Made by a program: the position numbers and the translations under genes. The notes under the pieces are model-generated. The model was not told the origin of the DNA, made no database searches, and saw nothing but the letters and a program-made list of their open reading frames with translations. 32,593 bases of DNA from an archaeon (GTDB taxonomy: Archaea; Iainarchaeota; Iainarchaeia; Iainarchaeales; DTGL01), in the NCBI GenBank assembly GCA_029258755.1, contig JAPDKC010000016.1, positions 1 through 32,593 on the forward strand, given 5' to 3'. The number at the start of each line of letters is the position of its first letter. Positions within the stretch are counted from its first letter, which is position 1. Below, in pieces: positions 384 to 7,145 of this stretch.

Positions 384-3332
384 ATGAGTTTGAAAAGATT
401 GGATAGATTTGTTTGGGAAATACCAAAGCAGAACGATATGCTTGTTCCTGCAAGGATATACTCTAGTGAAGAAATGATTCAGGAGCTTATACGTGAGGAA
501 AGCACCGATTGGAGCACATTAAGGCAGCTTAGAAATGTAGCTTGCTTGCCAGGGATTCAAAAGCATGCTTTGGCTTTAGCTGATTGTCATCCTGGCTATG
601 GAGCTCCCATTGGCGGTGTAGCTGCAATGGATATAAATGAAGGTGTTATTACGTTCGGACTTATCGGTTTTGATATTAACTGCCTTGAGGGAAATGCAAA
701 AGTTCTGGATGAATTTGGGGCGTACAGAGAGATAAAATACGAAAAATTCTGGCTAAAACGCAATGTGCTCTGCTTTTGGAAAAAGGATATCGAAATGGCA
801 AGCGTTGTTAGGTTTCTGAAAAGAACGGATAAAAAGGCATGTAAGATAATTACTGAAACTGGCAGAGAGATTATTGCAAGCTTAGACCATCCATTTTTAA
901 CAAAAAGGGGGATGATAGAGGCAAAAAATTTAAAGAAAGGCAGCATGCTTGCGGTATTTCCATTTGAAGGCGTTCCTTTTGAAAAACCCAAAAATAAAAC
1001 AATAGTGGATGAAAAGAAAATAAAAGAGGTTCTTAAAAAACATGGTTATAAAGACAAGGCCAAAATGAAGCAGGTAGTAGAAGAGCTCAAAAAAAGGGGG
1101 CTTCTGCCGCTTAAACTCAACAATGAAAAGGTGCCCTTTCTAATAAAGCTTATCGGGTATTCCTTTGGAGATGGACACGTATCGCTAACAAAGGAGTACG
1201 CGAATGTTTCTTTCTATGGAAAAGCAAACGACCTGCAGAACATACTCGATGATCTCAAAAAAGTAGGTTATTCCACGACAATTTATTCAAGGGAGAGAAA
1301 GCACAGGATAAATACCTCTTACAGAAAGGTAAGTTTTACCCGCACTGAACATAGCATCAACTGCGGAGCCCATTCCCTGGCGGCCTTGTTTATTGCTATG
1401 GGAGCGCCAGAAGGAAATAAGGCAAAGGAAGATTTTGAAATACCGCAATGGCTTATGGGAGCACCGTTGTGGTATAAAAGGCTTTTCTTAGCTTCATTTT
1501 TTGGAGCGGAGCTAAGCTCGCCGAAGACTGTTACAAAGCACGGCTACAACTTCTACGGACCTATACTTTCTATAAATAAAAAAGAAAATGCTGTAAAAAG
1601 TGGCAAAAAATTTTTGATGCAAATTAAAAAATTGCTAAGCGAATTTGGTGTAAAAAGCAGATTGATAAAAGAAAGAACCGAATACAAAAACAAAGCTGGA
1701 GAGGTTTCAATAAGGCTGCGCCTTCAAATATCAAGTGAAAACAAAAACCTCATCAGCCTGTACAAAAAAGTGGGTTTCGAATACAATACCGAAAAAAGGT
1801 TCTTGGGAAACGCTGCAATTCAGTATCTAACCTTAAAAGAGAGGATATTAGAGTTAAGGAAAAGGATAGAAAAAAAGGCTAAGGAGCTTAAAAGCAAGGG
1901 CGTTCCAAGCAGGGAGATAAAGAACATGCTCTGCCAAAAATACATAAATAGCCGATTCATAGAAAGGTGCATTTGGGAAAGGAGAAAAACTGCGCCAAGA
2001 ATTTCATTCGTATTTCCAAAGTTCGAAGAATTTATAAAGGCCCGCACAACAGGTTTAGGCAAAAGCGGTGTTGTTTGGGAGGAAATAGCAAAAATTGAAG
2101 TAATTCCTTTCAGGAAAAAGGTATATGACTTCACACTTGGGCATAAAGCACACAATTTTATAGCGAATGGTTTTGTGGTTTCAAATTGCGGCGTCAGAAC
2201 ATTAAAAACACCGCTCAAAAAGCAGGATATAGAAGGGGTTAAAGAAAAGTTAGCGGATGCTTTGTTTGAAAATATTCCTGCTGGCCTAGGCAGCGAAGGT
2301 GAGCTACGCTTAAGCCCGAGCCAGATAGATGAAGTGCTCATTGGCGGTGCGGAATATGTTGTAAAACAAGGTTACGGGCTCAAAGAAGATCTCGAGTATA
2401 TAGAGCTCAATGGAAAGGCACCTAACGCTAAGCCAGAGAATGTTTCGCAAAGAGCCAAACAAAGACAGTATAGGCAGGTTGGCACTTTAGGTTCTGGAAA
2501 CCATTATTTAGAGGTACAGTATGTGGAAGAAATTTATGATGAAGAAGCGGCTAAAGCATTTGGCTTATTTAAGGACCAAATTTTGGTAAGCATCCATTGT
2601 GGCAGCAGAGCTTTAGGGCATCAGATAGGCATGGATTATATTCAGGTTTTGCGTAGCGCAACGAGGAAGTATGGAATAAGGATAAAAGACAATGAGCTTG
2701 TTTGTGCTCCAATACAAAGCGAGGAAGGCCAGCGCTATCTAAGCGCTGTAAACGCTGGCATAAATTGTGCTTTTGCCAATAGGCAAGTGTTAACACACCT
2801 TACAAGAAGTGTGTTTTCCAAGGTTCTTGGCATAGATGAAAAAGAGGTAAAAACGCTTTACGATGTTGGACACAATACAGCAAAAATAGAAAAGCATAGC
2901 ATTGATGGCATAACAAAAGAAGTTCTTGTACATAGAAAGGGCTCCACAAGAGGCTTTGGTCCTGGAAGGGAAGAAATACCTGAAGAATATAGAAGTGCTG
3001 GACAGCCGGTGCTTGTTGGCGGTACTATGGGAACAGCAAGCTATATATTGGTAGGTACAGAAAAAGGAATGCAAGAATGCTTCGGGTCAGCTGTACATGG
3101 GGCTGGTAGAAAGATGAGCAGACATGCAGCAGTAAAAAGATTCAGAGGCGAGCAGATAGCAGCAGAGTTAAGGAAAAAAGGAATAATAATAAAGGCGCAT
3201 TCTTGGCGTGGTGCAGCAGAAGAGGCACCGCAAGCGTACAAAGACATAGATGTTGTGGTAAACGTGATGCACGAAAGCGGCATAAACAAGAAAGTAGCTC
3301 GCTTAAGGCCTCTTATAACGGTGAAAGGATAA
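384..3332 (+). CDS. rtcB: RtcB RNA-splicing ligase containing an intein
   Basis: 982-residue precursor of the 3'-phosphate RNA ligase that joins tRNA exon halves and heals broken RNA (GTP- and Mn-dependent). N-extein is residues 1-99, intein 100-601, C-extein 602-982; the spliced product is 480 residues, the normal RtcB length. Extein landmarks: HPGYGAPIGG (69-78), metal ligands Asp97 and Cys602 (the split GFDIN/CGVR motif), GSGNH His707, SIHCGS His738, DVGH His830, and HGAGRKMSR with His905 at the place of the guanylylated catalytic His. These match the known Pyrococcus RtcB ligands once 502 residues are subtracted. ATG 384 follows a good GAAGGTGAT site. The gene appears to be monocistronic, with a TATA box upstream and a new promoter after it. 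All catalytic residues are present, so activity after splicing is expected. Confidence 0.96.
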   Translation: MSLKRLDRFVWEIPKQNDMLVPARIYSSEEMIQELIREESTDWSTLRQLRNVACLPGIQKHALALADCHPGYGAPIGGVAAMDINEGVITFGLIGFDINCLEGNAKVLDEFGAYREIKYEKFWLKRNVLCFWKKDIEMASVVRFLKRTDKKACKIITETGREIIASLDHPFLTKRGMIEAKNLKKGSMLAVFPFEGVPFEKPKNKTIVDEKKIKEVLKKHGYKDKAKMKQVVEELKKRGLLPLKLNNEKVPFLIKLIGYSFGDGHVSLTKEYANVSFYGKANDLQNILDDLKKVGYSTTIYSRERKHRINTSYRKVSFTRTEHSINCGAHSLAALFIAMGAPEGNKAKEDFEIPQWLMGAPLWYKRLFLASFFGAELSSPKTVTKHGYNFYGPILSINKKENAVKSGKKFLMQIKKLLSEFGVKSRLIKERTEYKNKAGEVSIRLRLQISSENKNLISLYKKVGFEYNTEKRFLGNAAIQYLTLKERILELRKRIEKKAKELKSKGVPSREIKNMLCQKYINSRFIERCIWERRKTAPRISFVFPKFEEFIKARTTGLGKSGVVWEEIAKIEVIPFRKKVYDFTLGHKAHNFIANGFVVSNCGVRTLKTPLKKQDIEGVKEKLADALFENIPAGLGSEGELRLSPSQIDEVLIGGAEYVVKQGYGLKEDLEYIELNGKAPNAKPENVSQRAKQRQYRQVGTLGSGNHYLEVQYVEEIYDEEAAKAFGLFKDQILVSIHCGSRALGHQIGMDYIQVLRSATRKYGIRIKDNELVCAPIQSEEGQRYLSAVNAGINCAFANRQVLTHLTRSVFSKVLGIDEKEVKTLYDVGHNTAKIEKHSIDGITKEVLVHRKGSTRGFGPGREEIPEEYRSAGQPVLVGGTMGTASYILVGTEKGMQECFGSAVHGAGRKMSRHAAVKRFRGEQIAAELRKKGIIIKAHSWRGAAEEAPQAYKDIDVVVNVMHESGINKKVARLRPLITVKG
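681..2186 (+). mobile_element. Intein with DOD (LAGLIDADG) homing endonuclease, inserted in rtcB
   Basis: In-frame 502-residue insertion splitting the conserved GFDIN/CGVR sequence of RtcB. It starts with nucleophile Cys100 (CLEGNAKVL, block A), has a block-B-like segment SLDHPFL with His169, and ends with block F VYDFTL...AHNFIANG and block G FVVSN (Asn601), followed by Cys602 as +1 nucleophile. Endonuclease motifs are LIGYSFGDGHV (Asp263) and LFLASFFGAELS (Glu376), typical of the two DOD helices with acidic catalytic residues. Residues 480-535 are a Lys/Arg-rich helical stretch, perhaps DNA-binding. The penultimate residue is Ser600 where most inteins have His; such variants are known and can still splice. 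RtcB inteins at this position are known in other archaea (for example Pyrococcus). The element looks intact: no stop or frameshift. Confidence 0.95.
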
Positions 3333-3393: not shown

Positions 3394-4560
3394 ATGCCTC
3401 GTATAAAAAACTTTCTATGCTTTGTACTTATTGCTCTTGTTTTATTCCCAATGGTTAGCTTTGCGGCTGATTGTAGCGATTTAGAGCTTGTTGTCACAGA
3501 TGTTGATGTAAAAGAAGGAAGCACTGCAAGCTTTGCATTTTACCTCCATAATAACACTAACGAGCGCTTTTATATAGATAGGGTTAGCGCTTACGACTTT
3601 GCGGAAGGGATAATTACGCAAGCTTTGCGCTGGGATAGAGTTGCGCTTAGTGGGAGCGAAGCAAGCATTGTAATAAGCATAGAGGCGCCTGAAGGAGCTA
3701 GCGCTAAGGATAGAAATGCCTATGTTCAGGTAAGAGGACATTTCTTAAGCGGAAAGGTATGCCACTATCGCGATATAAAAGCTGTTTTTCCTGTTAGGGT
3801 TATAAAGGAAGACGCTTCTGAAGCAGTACCGGATTGTGGACACTTTGATATTGTTCTACCTTCCTCAATAAATATACATAACTTTGGTACCCTCGATTTT
3901 ATAGTGGAAAATTATACCAGCGAAGATGCAAGGATTTATGTAAAAGGCGTGGGAGCAAGCGTAGATACAATAATGTATTTGATTCCTGCAAAATCGAGGG
4001 TTTATAAAACGCTCCGCATAGAAAGCGAGCAAACAAGCGCCCTAATTCTGTTCGATGCCGATTTAGGGGCCTGCGGAACCAAAAGCTATGAGCTTACTGT
4101 TCACAATGTTGTGTTTGAAAAACCTGAAGAAAAGCCAGATGTAGAGATGAGCTATTCTATAGCCAAAGATGAAAATGGCTACTTAGTTAGTGTAACCTTG
4201 AAGAATCTAAGCCAATTTGAGATCAACGGCATTCTTTATGCTGAAGTGCCAGAGAACTGGTATGCTGATAGCTTTGAGGTTATGCTTGCGCCTTTTGAAG
4301 AGGCAACAATAGATATGCGTGTAATTCCTGAAGAAAAGAGCGAAACACAAAGCTTCGATATTGTTTTCCAATATAACGGCAGCGAGGAACGGCTTTCTGT
4401 TCAGCTCCAAAAGGAAAAAAGAGAAGAACCATTTGCCATAGGCCTTACGACGCTTGTGGCTTCAGCTATTTTAGCAGGAATACTGGTTATGGTGATAATA
4501 ATATTGATAGGAAGTACTACGAGCAAACGCATTAAGGAGCCTTGGCAAGAGGTGGTTTAA
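3394..4560 (+). CDS. Secreted, membrane-anchored protein with Ig-like repeats
   Basis: 388 residues, family not recognised. An N-terminal signal peptide (basic MPRIK, hydrophobic 7-22, VSFAA near 21-25) is followed by beta-rich extracellular sequence. Two related modules each begin with D-C (Cys27 in DCSDLELVV, then DCGHFDIVL) and each carry one later Cys (GKVCHYRD; GACGTKSYEL), suggesting one disulfide per module. A third, Cys-free module contains NLSQFEINGILYAEVPENW, the style of CARDB or NPCBM-associated Ig-like domains. A transmembrane helix at about 349-373 and a short cytoplasmic tail (TSKRIKEPWQEVV) end the protein. It is therefore predicted to be type I with the bulk outside. Its TAA overlaps the ATG of the next gene, so the two are translationally coupled and may act together at the cell surface. 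The function is unknown. Confidence 0.8.
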   Translation: MPRIKNFLCFVLIALVLFPMVSFAADCSDLELVVTDVDVKEGSTASFAFYLHNNTNERFYIDRVSAYDFAEGIITQALRWDRVALSGSEASIVISIEAPEGASAKDRNAYVQVRGHFLSGKVCHYRDIKAVFPVRVIKEDASEAVPDCGHFDIVLPSSINIHNFGTLDFIVENYTSEDARIYVKGVGASVDTIMYLIPAKSRVYKTLRIESEQTSALILFDADLGACGTKSYELTVHNVVFEKPEEKPDVEMSYSIAKDENGYLVSVTLKNLSQFEINGILYAEVPENWYADSFEVMLAPFEEATIDMRVIPEEKSETQSFDIVFQYNGSEERLSVQLQKEKREEPFAIGLTTLVASAILAGILVMVIIILIGSTTSKRIKEPWQEVV

Positions 4561-5150
4561 TGAAAAAAATTTGCATAGTTTTGGCAGCTTTATTGCTTTT
4601 TACAAGCGTCTACGCATACAGCGGCTCTTACTCAAAGCTTATTAAACCAGGGGACACGGTAAAGCTATTGATACCATATGGCAAGTATGTAGATATTAAT
4701 GATCTTAAGATAGAGGTAAACGGATGGCTCGCGCTCAACAGATTGGGCTTTGCGCCTTTGTGTCAGGGGACGTGCTGCTTATATAAAGATTTTTATATCT
4801 ATGCTGAACCTGACAAAACACCAATAGGCAAAGTGAGGATATTTGCAGGAATCCCGAGGGTTTCTATATGGCAAAGCTTCGATTTTAGAGGCAGAAGATG
4901 GCTTATCCTAATAGCGCAAGGACATGCTAGCTATGTAAAAACAAGCGCTCCGACAAGGAGCATAAGAAGCTCTACTTTCTACCCTATGCGAAGCTTACGC
5001 AACTATCGCTCGCGCAGCTATTGGAAAAACTATAGCTTGCGTAACATATCAAGGTACAACTGGCATAGCTCTAAGCGTTACATATATAAGCCTTGGAGAA
5101 TTAGAGGCAGCTTATACTACGGCCGCTATTCGAGATTTAGAATAAGGTAA
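4560..5150 (+). CDS. Small secreted protein with Arg/Tyr/Ser-rich tail
   Basis: 196 residues from ATG 4560, which shares its A with the preceding TAA stop and has an AGAGGTGGT site just upstream. A signal peptide is clear (MKK, hydrophobic 4-17, cleavage near VYA19). Residues 20-125 form a compact, probably beta-rich region with a Cys cluster (LCQGTCCLY, Cys68, Cys72, Cys73). Residues 131-196 are low in complexity: 15 Arg, 3 Lys and 10 Tyr, with many Ser and no Asp or Glu. The last acidic residue in the whole protein is Asp108. Such a tail could bind nucleic acid, envelope polymer or membrane lipid, or be intrinsically disordered and sticky. I do not recognise the family. It is coupled to the anchored Ig-like protein before it and followed by a gene-free stretch. 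Confidence 0.75.
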   Translation: MKKICIVLAALLLFTSVYAYSGSYSKLIKPGDTVKLLIPYGKYVDINDLKIEVNGWLALNRLGFAPLCQGTCCLYKDFYIYAEPDKTPIGKVRIFAGIPRVSIWQSFDFRGRRWLILIAQGHASYVKTSAPTRSIRSSTFYPMRSLRNYRSRSYWKNYSLRNISRYNWHSSKRYIYKPWRIRGSLYYGRYSRFRIR

Positions 5151-5170
5151 AAATGCAAAATTGCAAAAGT

Positions 5171-5180
5171 ATTTTAAAAT
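5171..5180 (+). promoter_or_regulatory. TATA box of the candidate RNA gene
   Basis: ATTTTAAAAT is centred about 27-32 bases before the first bases of the predicted RNA stem (5208), about the spacing expected between an archaeal TATA box and the start site. It lies just after the stop of the preceding gene. Confidence 0.45.
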
Positions 5181-5202
5181 ATTCTACAAAACATTTTATT
5201 TA

Positions 5203-5303
5203 ATTGTGCAAGCACACTGTGTCCCAGCACAGCTTGCATGAAGGGGAAGCAGCATACAAAAAGAGATGCTGGGGCATAAATGCTGCAGTGGCTTGCTTCT
5301 TTT
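5203..5303 (+). ncRNA. Candidate structured small RNA, possible pseudoknot
   Basis: The 191-base gap before L3 holds no ORF but strong base pairing. Helix 1: 5208-5213 (GCAAGC) with 5291-5296 (GCTTGC), and 5215-5219 (CACTG) with 5286-5290 (CAGTG), with A5214 bulged. Helix 2: 5220-5229 with 5267-5276, ten pairs including one G-U. A nine-base bulge (5277-5285) lies only on the 3' side. The apical loop 5230-5266 contains a small GCTT/AAGC stem (5232-5235/5247-5250). Loop bases 5250-5255 (CAGCAT) are complementary to 5280-5285 (ATGCTG) in the bulge, so a pseudoknot or an alternative fold is possible. The 3' end runs into CTTCTTTTAATATTTTT, a T-rich terminator. It has its own upstream TATA box. 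It matches no RNA family I can name; it could be a free RNA or the regulated leader of the ribosomal operon. Confidence 0.5.
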
Positions 5304-5307
5304 AATA

Positions 5308-5317
5308 TTTTTAAATC
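5308..5317 (+). promoter_or_regulatory. Promoter region of the ribosomal superoperon
   Basis: TTTTTAAATC lies 25-34 bases before ATG 5342, giving a start site at or just before the gene. An alternative TATA-like TTTTAATATT begins at 5301 and would give a leader of about ten bases that keeps the GGTGGCG site (5333-5339). Either way the leader is very short. The T-run here also serves as a terminator for whatever is transcribed from upstream. Confidence 0.45.
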
Positions 5318-5341: not shown

Positions 5342-6346
5342 ATGGCCAAAATACATAAGCCAAGAAGCGGTAGCTTAGCTTTCTACCCAAGAAAGCGAGC
5401 AAAGAAAGAAACGCCTAGCTTTAAGACTGTTCCTGGAAAAGAAGCTAGCGAAGTAAAGCCATTAAACTTCTACGGCTACAAGGTTGGGATGGCTCATGTT
5501 GTAGCCAGCGATATGCATAAAAAAAGCCCTAGCTATGGGCAGAAGGTTTCTATGCCTGTAACCATAATTGAGACGCCGCCATTAGCTGTTGTTGGTGTTC
5601 GCGCCTATGAAAAAACAACTGAAGGCTTAAGGGTTATAACTGAGGTTCTTGCAGAGGAGCTACCAAAAGAGCTCGCAAGGCGCATTAAAACATTGCGTAA
5701 GCATTTGGAAAAAAAGAAGGAGAAGAAAAGCGATCTTGGAAAGATAGAAAAGCTTGTTGAAGAGAAAAAGGTGCATGAGTTAAGATTGCTTGCATGCACA
5801 CAACCAAAGCTAACTACTATAGGAAAGAAGAAGCCAGAGCTCGTTGAGATTCATTTAAGCGGACCTGTAGAGAAACAGCTTGAATATGCTAAAGAAAAGC
5901 TTGGAAAGGAGATAAGCGTAAGGGAAGCTTTTAAAGAGCTAGATTTTTTGGATGTTAAAGCTGTTACCAAAGGCAAGGGCTTCCAAGGCGTGGTTAAGCG
6001 CTTCGGAGTTAAGATGCAGAGGCCCAAATCTAAAGAAAGACGTGTTGTTGGTTCTATAGGACCCTGGCATCCGCCCACTGTTATGTGGACTGTACCAAGG
6101 CCTGGCCAGATGGGCTATCACACAAGGACAGAATACAATAAAAAGCTGCTTAAGATAAGCGATGACCCGAGCATAAATCCGAAAGGCGGCTGGAAGAATT
6201 ATGGCATTATAAAGAATGAATATATAATAGTTGAAGGTTCTATTCCAGGTCCAAGCAAAAGGTGCGTTGCTTTTAGAAAAAGCATAAGGCCAGCGCCTTT
6301 AGAGCATCATAAAATAGAAGAGGTGTCGCTAATTGTCACCAAGTAA
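5342..6346 (+). CDS. rpl3: 50S ribosomal protein L3 (uL3)
   Basis: 334 residues, the normal archaeal length. It binds 23S rRNA near the peptidyl transferase centre and is an early assembly protein. Recognisable features: the N-terminal MAKIHKPRSGSLAFYPRKRA typical of archaeal L3, the GYKVGMAHV motif, and the central KGKGFQGVVKRFG...GSIGPWHPP loop whose tip reaches the catalytic site. A Lys/Glu-rich helical insertion (about residues 110-145) is characteristic of the archaeal/eukaryotic form. It is the first gene of the superoperon, behind a GGTGG site. Its stop at 6344-6346 overlaps the L4 start by 14 bases. Confidence 0.97.
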   Translation: MAKIHKPRSGSLAFYPRKRAKKETPSFKTVPGKEASEVKPLNFYGYKVGMAHVVASDMHKKSPSYGQKVSMPVTIIETPPLAVVGVRAYEKTTEGLRVITEVLAEELPKELARRIKTLRKHLEKKKEKKSDLGKIEKLVEEKKVHELRLLACTQPKLTTIGKKKPELVEIHLSGPVEKQLEYAKEKLGKEISVREAFKELDFLDVKAVTKGKGFQGVVKRFGVKMQRPKSKERRVVGSIGPWHPPTVMWTVPRPGQMGYHTRTEYNKKLLKISDDPSINPKGGWKNYGIIKNEYIIVEGSIPGPSKRCVAFRKSIRPAPLEHHKIEEVSLIVTK

Positions 6347-7145
6347 AGTAGCTGTTTATTCTATTGATGGTAAGAAGCTAAAAGAGATAGAATTGCCCAA
6401 GGTATTCTTTGCAGAGTTAGAGCCGGAATTAATAAGGCGAGCTGTATTAGCGATGCAATCTGCAAGGAGGCAGCCAAAAGGCACTAAAGAAGGCGCAGGC
6501 ATGAAGGTAGCTGAATATCGTGGCTCAAGAGATCTGCCATTCTATGATAGAAGCATAAATGTTGAGCGTGCAAGGCTTCCAAGGCTCAAGAATAGAAGAA
6601 CTCTGCTTGAAGGTCGCGTTGCCAATGTTCCGCAAGCTGTTGGTGGCAGACGAGCTCATCCGCCCAAGCCAGAAAAGAAGATCGAGGAAAGGATAAACAA
6701 GAAGGAGAAGAAAAAAGCGCTTATAAGTGCTATTGCATATACCAAGGAGAAGGAAGCAATAGCAAAAAGGCATAAGATTCCTGAAACAATACAACTGCCA
6801 ATAGTTATTGAGGACAAATTTGAGCGCCTTAAAAAAACAAAAGAAGTGCTTCAGGTATTTGAAAAGCTTGGTATAGCTAGCGATATTATTTATGCCAAAG
6901 AGAAAACAAGGAAGCGCGCAGGCAAAGGTAAAGCAAGAGGAAGAAAGATTAAAAAGAAGAAAAGTGCATTAATTATTACATCGAAGGAAGCGCCTGTTTA
7001 TAAAGCAGCTCGCAATTTAGTTGGCGTTGATATTTGCAGTGTAACAAATCTAAATGCTGAACTTTTAGCACCTGGCGGTATGCCAGGCAGATTAACAATC
7101 TGGACAGAAAGCGCTATAAAGAAGCTTAACGAGGTAATGCCATGA
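6333..7145 (+). CDS. rpl4: 50S ribosomal protein L4 (uL4), TTG start
   Basis: 270 residues. L4 lines the nascent peptide exit tunnel. The sequence opens with VAVYSIDGKKLKEIELP and carries the long basic tunnel loop, including QSARRQPKGTKEGAGM and GGRRAHPPKPEKK, then the globular C-terminal part with APGGMPGRLTIWTESAI. No ATG or GTG is available near the family start. TTG at 6333 is eight to nine bases after AGGTG inside the L3 gene, so translation of L4 is probably coupled to L3. The next gene starts on the overlapping ATGA at its end. Confidence 0.95.
   Translation: MSPSKVAVYSIDGKKLKEIELPKVFFAELEPELIRRAVLAMQSARRQPKGTKEGAGMKVAEYRGSRDLPFYDRSINVERARLPRLKNRRTLLEGRVANVPQAVGGRRAHPPKPEKKIEERINKKEKKKALISAIAYTKEKEAIAKRHKIPETIQLPIVIEDKFERLKKTKEVLQVFEKLGIASDIIYAKEKTRKRAGKGKARGRKIKKKKSALIITSKEAPVYKAARNLVGVDICSVTNLNAELLAPGGMPGRLTIWTESAIKKLNEVMP

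Follow-up and report, generated by a model that had tools for sequence, protein, structure and literature searches.

What is encoded in the gene-free gap ahead of the ribosomal L3 operon of a Diapherotrites (Iainarchaeota) genome of 1.2 Mb, and does it act by itself or on the operon behind it? The window (the whole stretch of DNA that was analysed, 32,593 nucleotides) has no genes between positions 5151 and 5341, as the initial annotation had stated. This gap separates a 202-aa ORF, which ends at 5150, from the L3 gene, which starts at 5342. The first two genes of the operon are as follows.

5342 to 6346, + strand: uL3 gene, first in the putatively regulated operon (Pfam PF00297, 2.8e-84)
6333 to 7145, + strand: uL4 gene, second in the operon, whose product is the favoured candidate ligand (Pfam PF00573, 1.9e-36)

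Genes for L23, L2, S19, L22, S3 and others follow, as judged by order and sequence. On the other side of the gap, 5' of the candidate RNA, ORFs of 388 aa and 202 aa lie side by side at 3394-5150. Both have signal-like or membrane-like N-terminal stretches and no Pfam match, and the C-terminus of the 202-aa product is rich in R, S and Y. A tRNA ligase RtcB gene at 384-3332 is split by an intein that carries a LAGLIDADG endonuclease domain (matches to the Pfam entries RtcB, Intein_splicing and LAGLIDADG_3). A tRNA and tmRNA search of the window found none.

The gap had been proposed to fold into two stacked helices that belong to no known family. Rfam 15 indeed gives no match at gathering score in the window, and at E values up to 10 there are chance-level matches only, in the element and in ten relatives. 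The proposed fold, at -30.4 kcal/mol, is not the minimum, which is -37.1. The folding energy of the region is unremarkable as well (z = -1.34, with 19 of 200 shuffled sequences folding at least as well), as could be expected if an AT-rich intergenic gap folded by chance. Folding energy therefore fails to single out the region, and comparison of relatives must decide.

The regions upstream of L3 were compared across the whole phylum, and those of the window's order have in common, in nearly all genomes, the pattern GYA-NACU-[hairpin]-AAA-UGC, in which the hairpin sequence is almost free. In the window, the covariance-model match covers 5204-5291 with 32.7 bits, and there is no other significant match. 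The parts of the element are as follows.

5204 to 5296, + strand: predicted 5' leader RNA element of the L3-L4-L23-L2 operon transcript, located by the covariance-model match
5212 to 5214, + strand: P1 5' strand, GCA (consensus GYA), pairing with 5281-5283
5215 to 5218, + strand: 5' side of the internal loop, CACU (consensus NACU), with ACU invariant in the alignment
5219 to 5229, + strand: P2 5' strand, whose first base, G, forms a conserved G-U pair
5230 to 5266, + strand: variable apical region, long only in the window's genus and a few others, and containing 5250-5255
5267 to 5277, + strand: P2 3' strand, identified by covariation
5278 to 5280, + strand: 3' side of the internal loop, AAA (consensus AA[A/G/C] in the alignment)
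5281 to 5283, + strand: P1 3' strand, UGC (UAC in some families in which its partner is GUA)

Covariation was counted in an alignment (A2) of 52 representatives of the order. Under the two-helix model 97.3% of 519 cells are paired, compared with 78.9% in column shuffles and 27-51% in slid controls, and 116 cells are changed on both sides (33 in the column shuffles). On four of five covariation measures none of 500 shuffles scored equally high. P2 has changes on both sides in all seven of the pairs tested. The middle pair of P1 occurs as C-G, U-G and U-A, is paired in 100% of the 52 sequences and includes a compensatory change. RNAalifold, run unguided, recovered the same fold, with double changes in 9 of 11 pairs. 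The alignment shows no or almost no variation in the loop ACU, in the two outer P1 pairs (G-C and A-U) and at the first two positions of AAA. This order-wide conservation and covariation refute the chance fold, whose probability we consider negligible. The G-U pair at the base of P2, present in 45 of 52 sequences, also identifies the strand as that of L3, because on the opposite strand it would read C-A; high model scores were found on the L3 strand in a search with filters off.

The helices named in the initial annotation can be compared with this fold. All their pairs can form in the window (5208-5213 with 5291-5296, 5215-5219 with 5286-5290, and 5220-5229 with 5267-5276), but only the inner helix is conserved across the order. 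It is P2 (5219-5229 with 5267-5277). The outer helix is specific to the genus, and its strands are as follows.

5208 to 5213, + strand: 5' strand of the alternative outer helix, GCAAGC, pairing with 5291-5296
5286 to 5296, + strand: 3' strand of the alternative outer helix, CAGUG-GCUUGC, identified by pairing and by comparison with relatives

GCAAGC/GCUUGC is kept in genomes G000 (that of the window) to G004, and no such helix is found outside family f1. The extension of the helix differs in sequence between these species (CACUG/CAGUG, CAC/GUG, ACA/UGU), and at 5215-5219 with 5286-5290 it pairs the CACU of 5215-5218, which is an unpaired internal loop in the order-wide consensus. Since the extension is rebuilt with different bases and swallows the conserved loop, the outer helix reads best as an alternative state. 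By the energy model the conserved core in the window, at -19.7, is weaker than the alternative, at -30.4, which counts against the conserved fold there. The nine-base bulge of the initial annotation resolves into the conserved AAA (5278-5280) and the UGC strand of P1 (5281-5283). A pseudoknot had also been suggested. CAGCAT at 5250-5255 is perfectly complementary to ATGCTG at 5280-5285 in the window, but other members of the family have not kept this complementarity: the loop site reads CAGTAA in G001 and G003, and the pairing is absent from G004, G005 and G006. Compensatory changes, the proposed check on the fold, are thus present in P2 and P1 and absent from the pseudoknot, with the outer helix local to the genus. 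A local hairpin (CUGUG..CACAG) whose loop CCCAG could pair with CUGGG as a pseudoknot is possible in f1 and not in the rest of the order.

The order comprises 75 genomes. Four are without an L3 match, two have only the C-terminal part of L3 and one has L3 at a contig end, which leaves 68 in which the upstream region can be read. The element is clear upstream of L3 in 66 of these, weak in G016 (17 bits) and absent in G060. Families f1 to f11, f13 and f15 to f20 have it, and a DNA search located it directly before L3 in seven of seven genomes of the window's family. The covariance model (R1), run against the whole genomes of 87 members of the phylum, gave 56 matches in 56 genomes, one in each and all before L3; eight of these genomes are not represented in the model. 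Further matches beyond the 56 appeared with filters off. The genes 5' of the element belong to many unrelated groups that differ between families while L3 is constant, which ties the element to L3 itself rather than to any larger gene block. Over 389 genomes, including other archaeal phyla, R1 has no match outside the order (about 300 genomes), with strict filters that may miss diverged forms. A 14-base core, GGGCATAAATGCTG, was rejected as a marker; it occurs exactly only in the window's family, and its one-mismatch matches elsewhere are mostly chance.

None of the 12 genomes that share the class but lie outside the order has a clear element. One genome of this class outside the order, G086, has the sequence CAUGUA-CACU-UGC-CAUAUU-GCA-AA-UGCAUG about 160 nt before L3 (L141, 214-253, - strand; 10 bits, E 1.7). 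It is possible that this is a very short, divergent relative of the leader, and it is not claimed as one here.

The signals on either side of the element bear on whether it belongs to the L3 transcript or is a gene of its own, both of which had been offered by the initial annotation. A TATA box before the stem and a T-rich run after it had been noted, and both are found.

5171 to 5178, + strand: TATA-like box TTTTAAAA of the predicted leader promoter, 30 nt before the stem, identified by sequence and by the position of the motif in relatives
5297 to 5312, + strand: U-rich tract, candidate archaeal terminator or attenuation site, supported by T-run enrichment in relatives

The motif TTTA[AT]A is most frequent 31-40 nt before P1, and 53 of 64 genomes have it at a distance of 30-75 nt ahead of P1. 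Upstream of the element a TATA motif is present in 77% of genomes by a strict definition (6% expected) and in 86% by a loose one (23% expected). Between the element and L3 the corresponding values are 19% (8% expected) and 33% (26% expected). In 69% of genomes, compared with 17% of shuffles, the 60 nt after P1 include a T-run of at least 5, and the T fraction peaks at 0.61 at +10 to +15 nt after P1. The median distance from the element to the L3 start is 97 nt.

A free-standing sRNA gene of about 95 nt, acting in trans and situated before L3 by chance, would account for a TATA box placed for a start at the stem and for a U-tract right behind it that would serve as terminator. In the window, TTTTTAAAT at about 5308-5316 could even be a second promoter, for L3. 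However, the element is never away from L3 in the 56 matched genomes, though the neighbours on its opposite side change, and most genomes have no promoter signal above chance between it and L3, so that on the sRNA reading L3 would be left without a promoter. With TATA just upstream, the U-tract just downstream and no consistent second promoter before L3, an mRNA leader is favoured and a free sRNA gene appears quite unlikely. The placement in the 5' region of the ribosomal-protein operon is consistent, in 67 of 68 readable genomes (one of them weak). Of the two initial proposals the leader is strongly supported by this linkage and by the promoter placement, and we have little doubt that the element is a cis-acting leader of the L3 operon.

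Very few cis-regulatory RNAs are known from archaea. A handful of archaeal cis-regulatory RNAs has been described (Eckert and Weinberg 2020, PMC7247131), and our search of the open-access full-text literature found no earlier description of leaders from Diapherotrites or DPANN. The nearest in role is L4-Archaeoglobi (RF03135, listed in Rfam 14; PMC7779021), likewise an archaeal leader before rplC-rplD-rplW-rplB, i.e. L3, L4, L23 and L2, for which a ribosomal-protein ligand was predicted from gene context (Eckert and Weinberg 2020, PMC7247131). In that RNA two hairpins emerge from a three-way junction, which is closed by CUGA/UCAG, whereas the present element consists of two stacked helices with a NACU/AAA internal loop and is without such a junction. 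The RF03135 model matches no genome of the phylum, while its matches in nine other archaeal genomes show that the search works; conversely, R1 has no match among RF03135 members. The archaeal eL15 and S15 leaders (Eckert and Weinberg 2020) are likewise predicted to be autogenous, and in the Methanomicrobia S15 leader a poly-U directly follows the structure, as it does here, but these RNAs differ in gene, lineage and structure, and they resemble rRNA sites, which the present element does not detectably do. The archaeal L7Ae leaders are a further case in which a ribosomal protein binds the structured 5' leader of its own mRNA (PMC5539422, PMC6298567). Those leaders contain a k-turn; the conserved loop here is NACU/AAA and the gene is L3 rather than L7Ae. 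As there is no Rfam match, RF03135 differs and no earlier description was found, the element appears to be a new family of ribosomal-protein leader RNAs, and it would be a second, unrelated RNA solution for the L3-L4 operon in archaea. An H/ACA guide RNA was considered and rejected; there is no ACA box 14-16 nt after the pocket, and the 3' strand runs into the U-tract.

In Escherichia coli, L4 regulates the S10 operon through a leader, by both termination and translation. This leader too heads an operon with L3 and L4, but its structure is unrelated and the gene order differs, S10 being first; the structural comparison was by Rfam only. In all known ribosomal-protein leaders the ligand is encoded by the regulated operon (PMC7247131), and a protein of this operon is for that reason the natural ligand. 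L4 is favoured, as the established ligand of a bacterial leader and the predicted one in Archaeoglobi, and L3 comes next. Mimicry of rRNA was examined as a further indication. In the window's genome a contig end truncates the large-subunit rRNA (contig C25, with only model positions 1324-2973 present), and relatives' rRNA was used for this reason. In four genomes of the order, R1 found nothing above background on either 23S or 16S rRNA, and direct and strand-swapped loop scans of 23S yielded no site common to the four. Since rRNA mimicry is absent from several proven leaders (PMC7247131), this result neither supports nor excludes a ribosomal-protein ligand. With no resemblance to 23S or 16S rRNA detected by the model, the case for such a ligand rests on genomic context, from which we judge it likely.

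A riboswitch would differ in that the P1/loop/P2 core would bind a small molecule or ion, such as a growth-state nucleotide. The concentration of the most conserved bases in a compact, asymmetric, aptamer-like internal loop would suit such a function, as would the missing rRNA resemblance. The element is, however, found only before one ribosomal operon and never before metabolic or transport genes, while small-molecule riboswitches usually precede several gene types, and it has no similarity to the riboswitches in Rfam. We therefore regard a riboswitch as rather unlikely and return to a protein-responsive leader.

The TATA box would put the transcript start near the 5' end of P1 and the U-tract follows at once, which makes attenuation the most economical mechanism. 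When a ribosomal protein of the operon is in excess, uL4 (favoured) or uL3 (next) would bind the nascent P1/loop/P2 core, and binding would decide whether the U-tract is exposed to the termination factor aCPSF1/FttA, in which case transcription would stop and the operon would be off. Otherwise the U-tract would be masked or by-passed through alternative pairing of the P1 strands, and the operon would be on. For f5 a candidate for this pairing is the hairpin GCCAAU..AUUGGC, which lies downstream and shares the 3' strand of P1; for the window's genus the candidate is the extended outer helix of the initial annotation. The joint action of aCPSF1 with the terminator U-tract in archaea is described in one report (PMC8716108). 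A terminated short leader transcript could accumulate under this scheme.

Whether transcription attenuation or translational control is involved we rate about evenly. The 3' strand of P1 is where the f5 hairpin (P3) begins, and the two would be mutually exclusive; the hairpin beats shuffles, and only 2% of sequences from other families pair as well. Families f9, f10, f13 and f18 have a trend in the same direction, and the hairpin is not convincing in f2, f6, f7, f8, f11 and f16. As a universal feature it was rejected, since only f5 and a few small families reach significance, and a single order-wide switching mechanism is consequently not demonstrated. A fuller version of the switch is offered tentatively: a protein or small ligand at the NACU/AAA core would choose between mutually exclusive structures that expose the U-tract to aCPSF1/FttA or hide it, and different families of the order would each have rebuilt the competing hairpin independently, with the core unchanged.

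The lack of a universal competing hairpin would also suit control of mRNA stability or translation, by protein binding or by gating of the 5' end, without termination. Some ribosomal-protein leaders work at the level of translation, and such action is established for bacterial ones. Yet at a median of 97 nt before L3 the element would not directly cover the start site, and the U-tract behind it is strongly enriched; we hold this explanation to be possible but doubtful. Taken as a whole, the interval 5204-5312 is probably the 5' leader of the L3-L4-L23-L2 mRNA, a cis-acting regulatory RNA gated by a ribosomal protein, and it probably lets the cell adjust its ribosomal protein output. Being kept across most families of the order, with clean covariation and a core of about 50 nt, the element makes a practical test bed for archaeal control of ribosome synthesis and for structural attenuation at U-tract terminators.

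Two variations within P2 may be added. Several f8 genomes (e.g. L083, L094 and L081) have A and C where P2 otherwise starts with its conserved G-U pair, a substitution that fits an isosteric wobble, and these leaders have UGGUGA in common in their apical loops. In the alignment rows of f5, f7, f9 to f11, f13, f15 and f17 the apical loop of P2 is partly conserved (GAACC / UAAAUCC), and it is possible that this loop is a second contact site.
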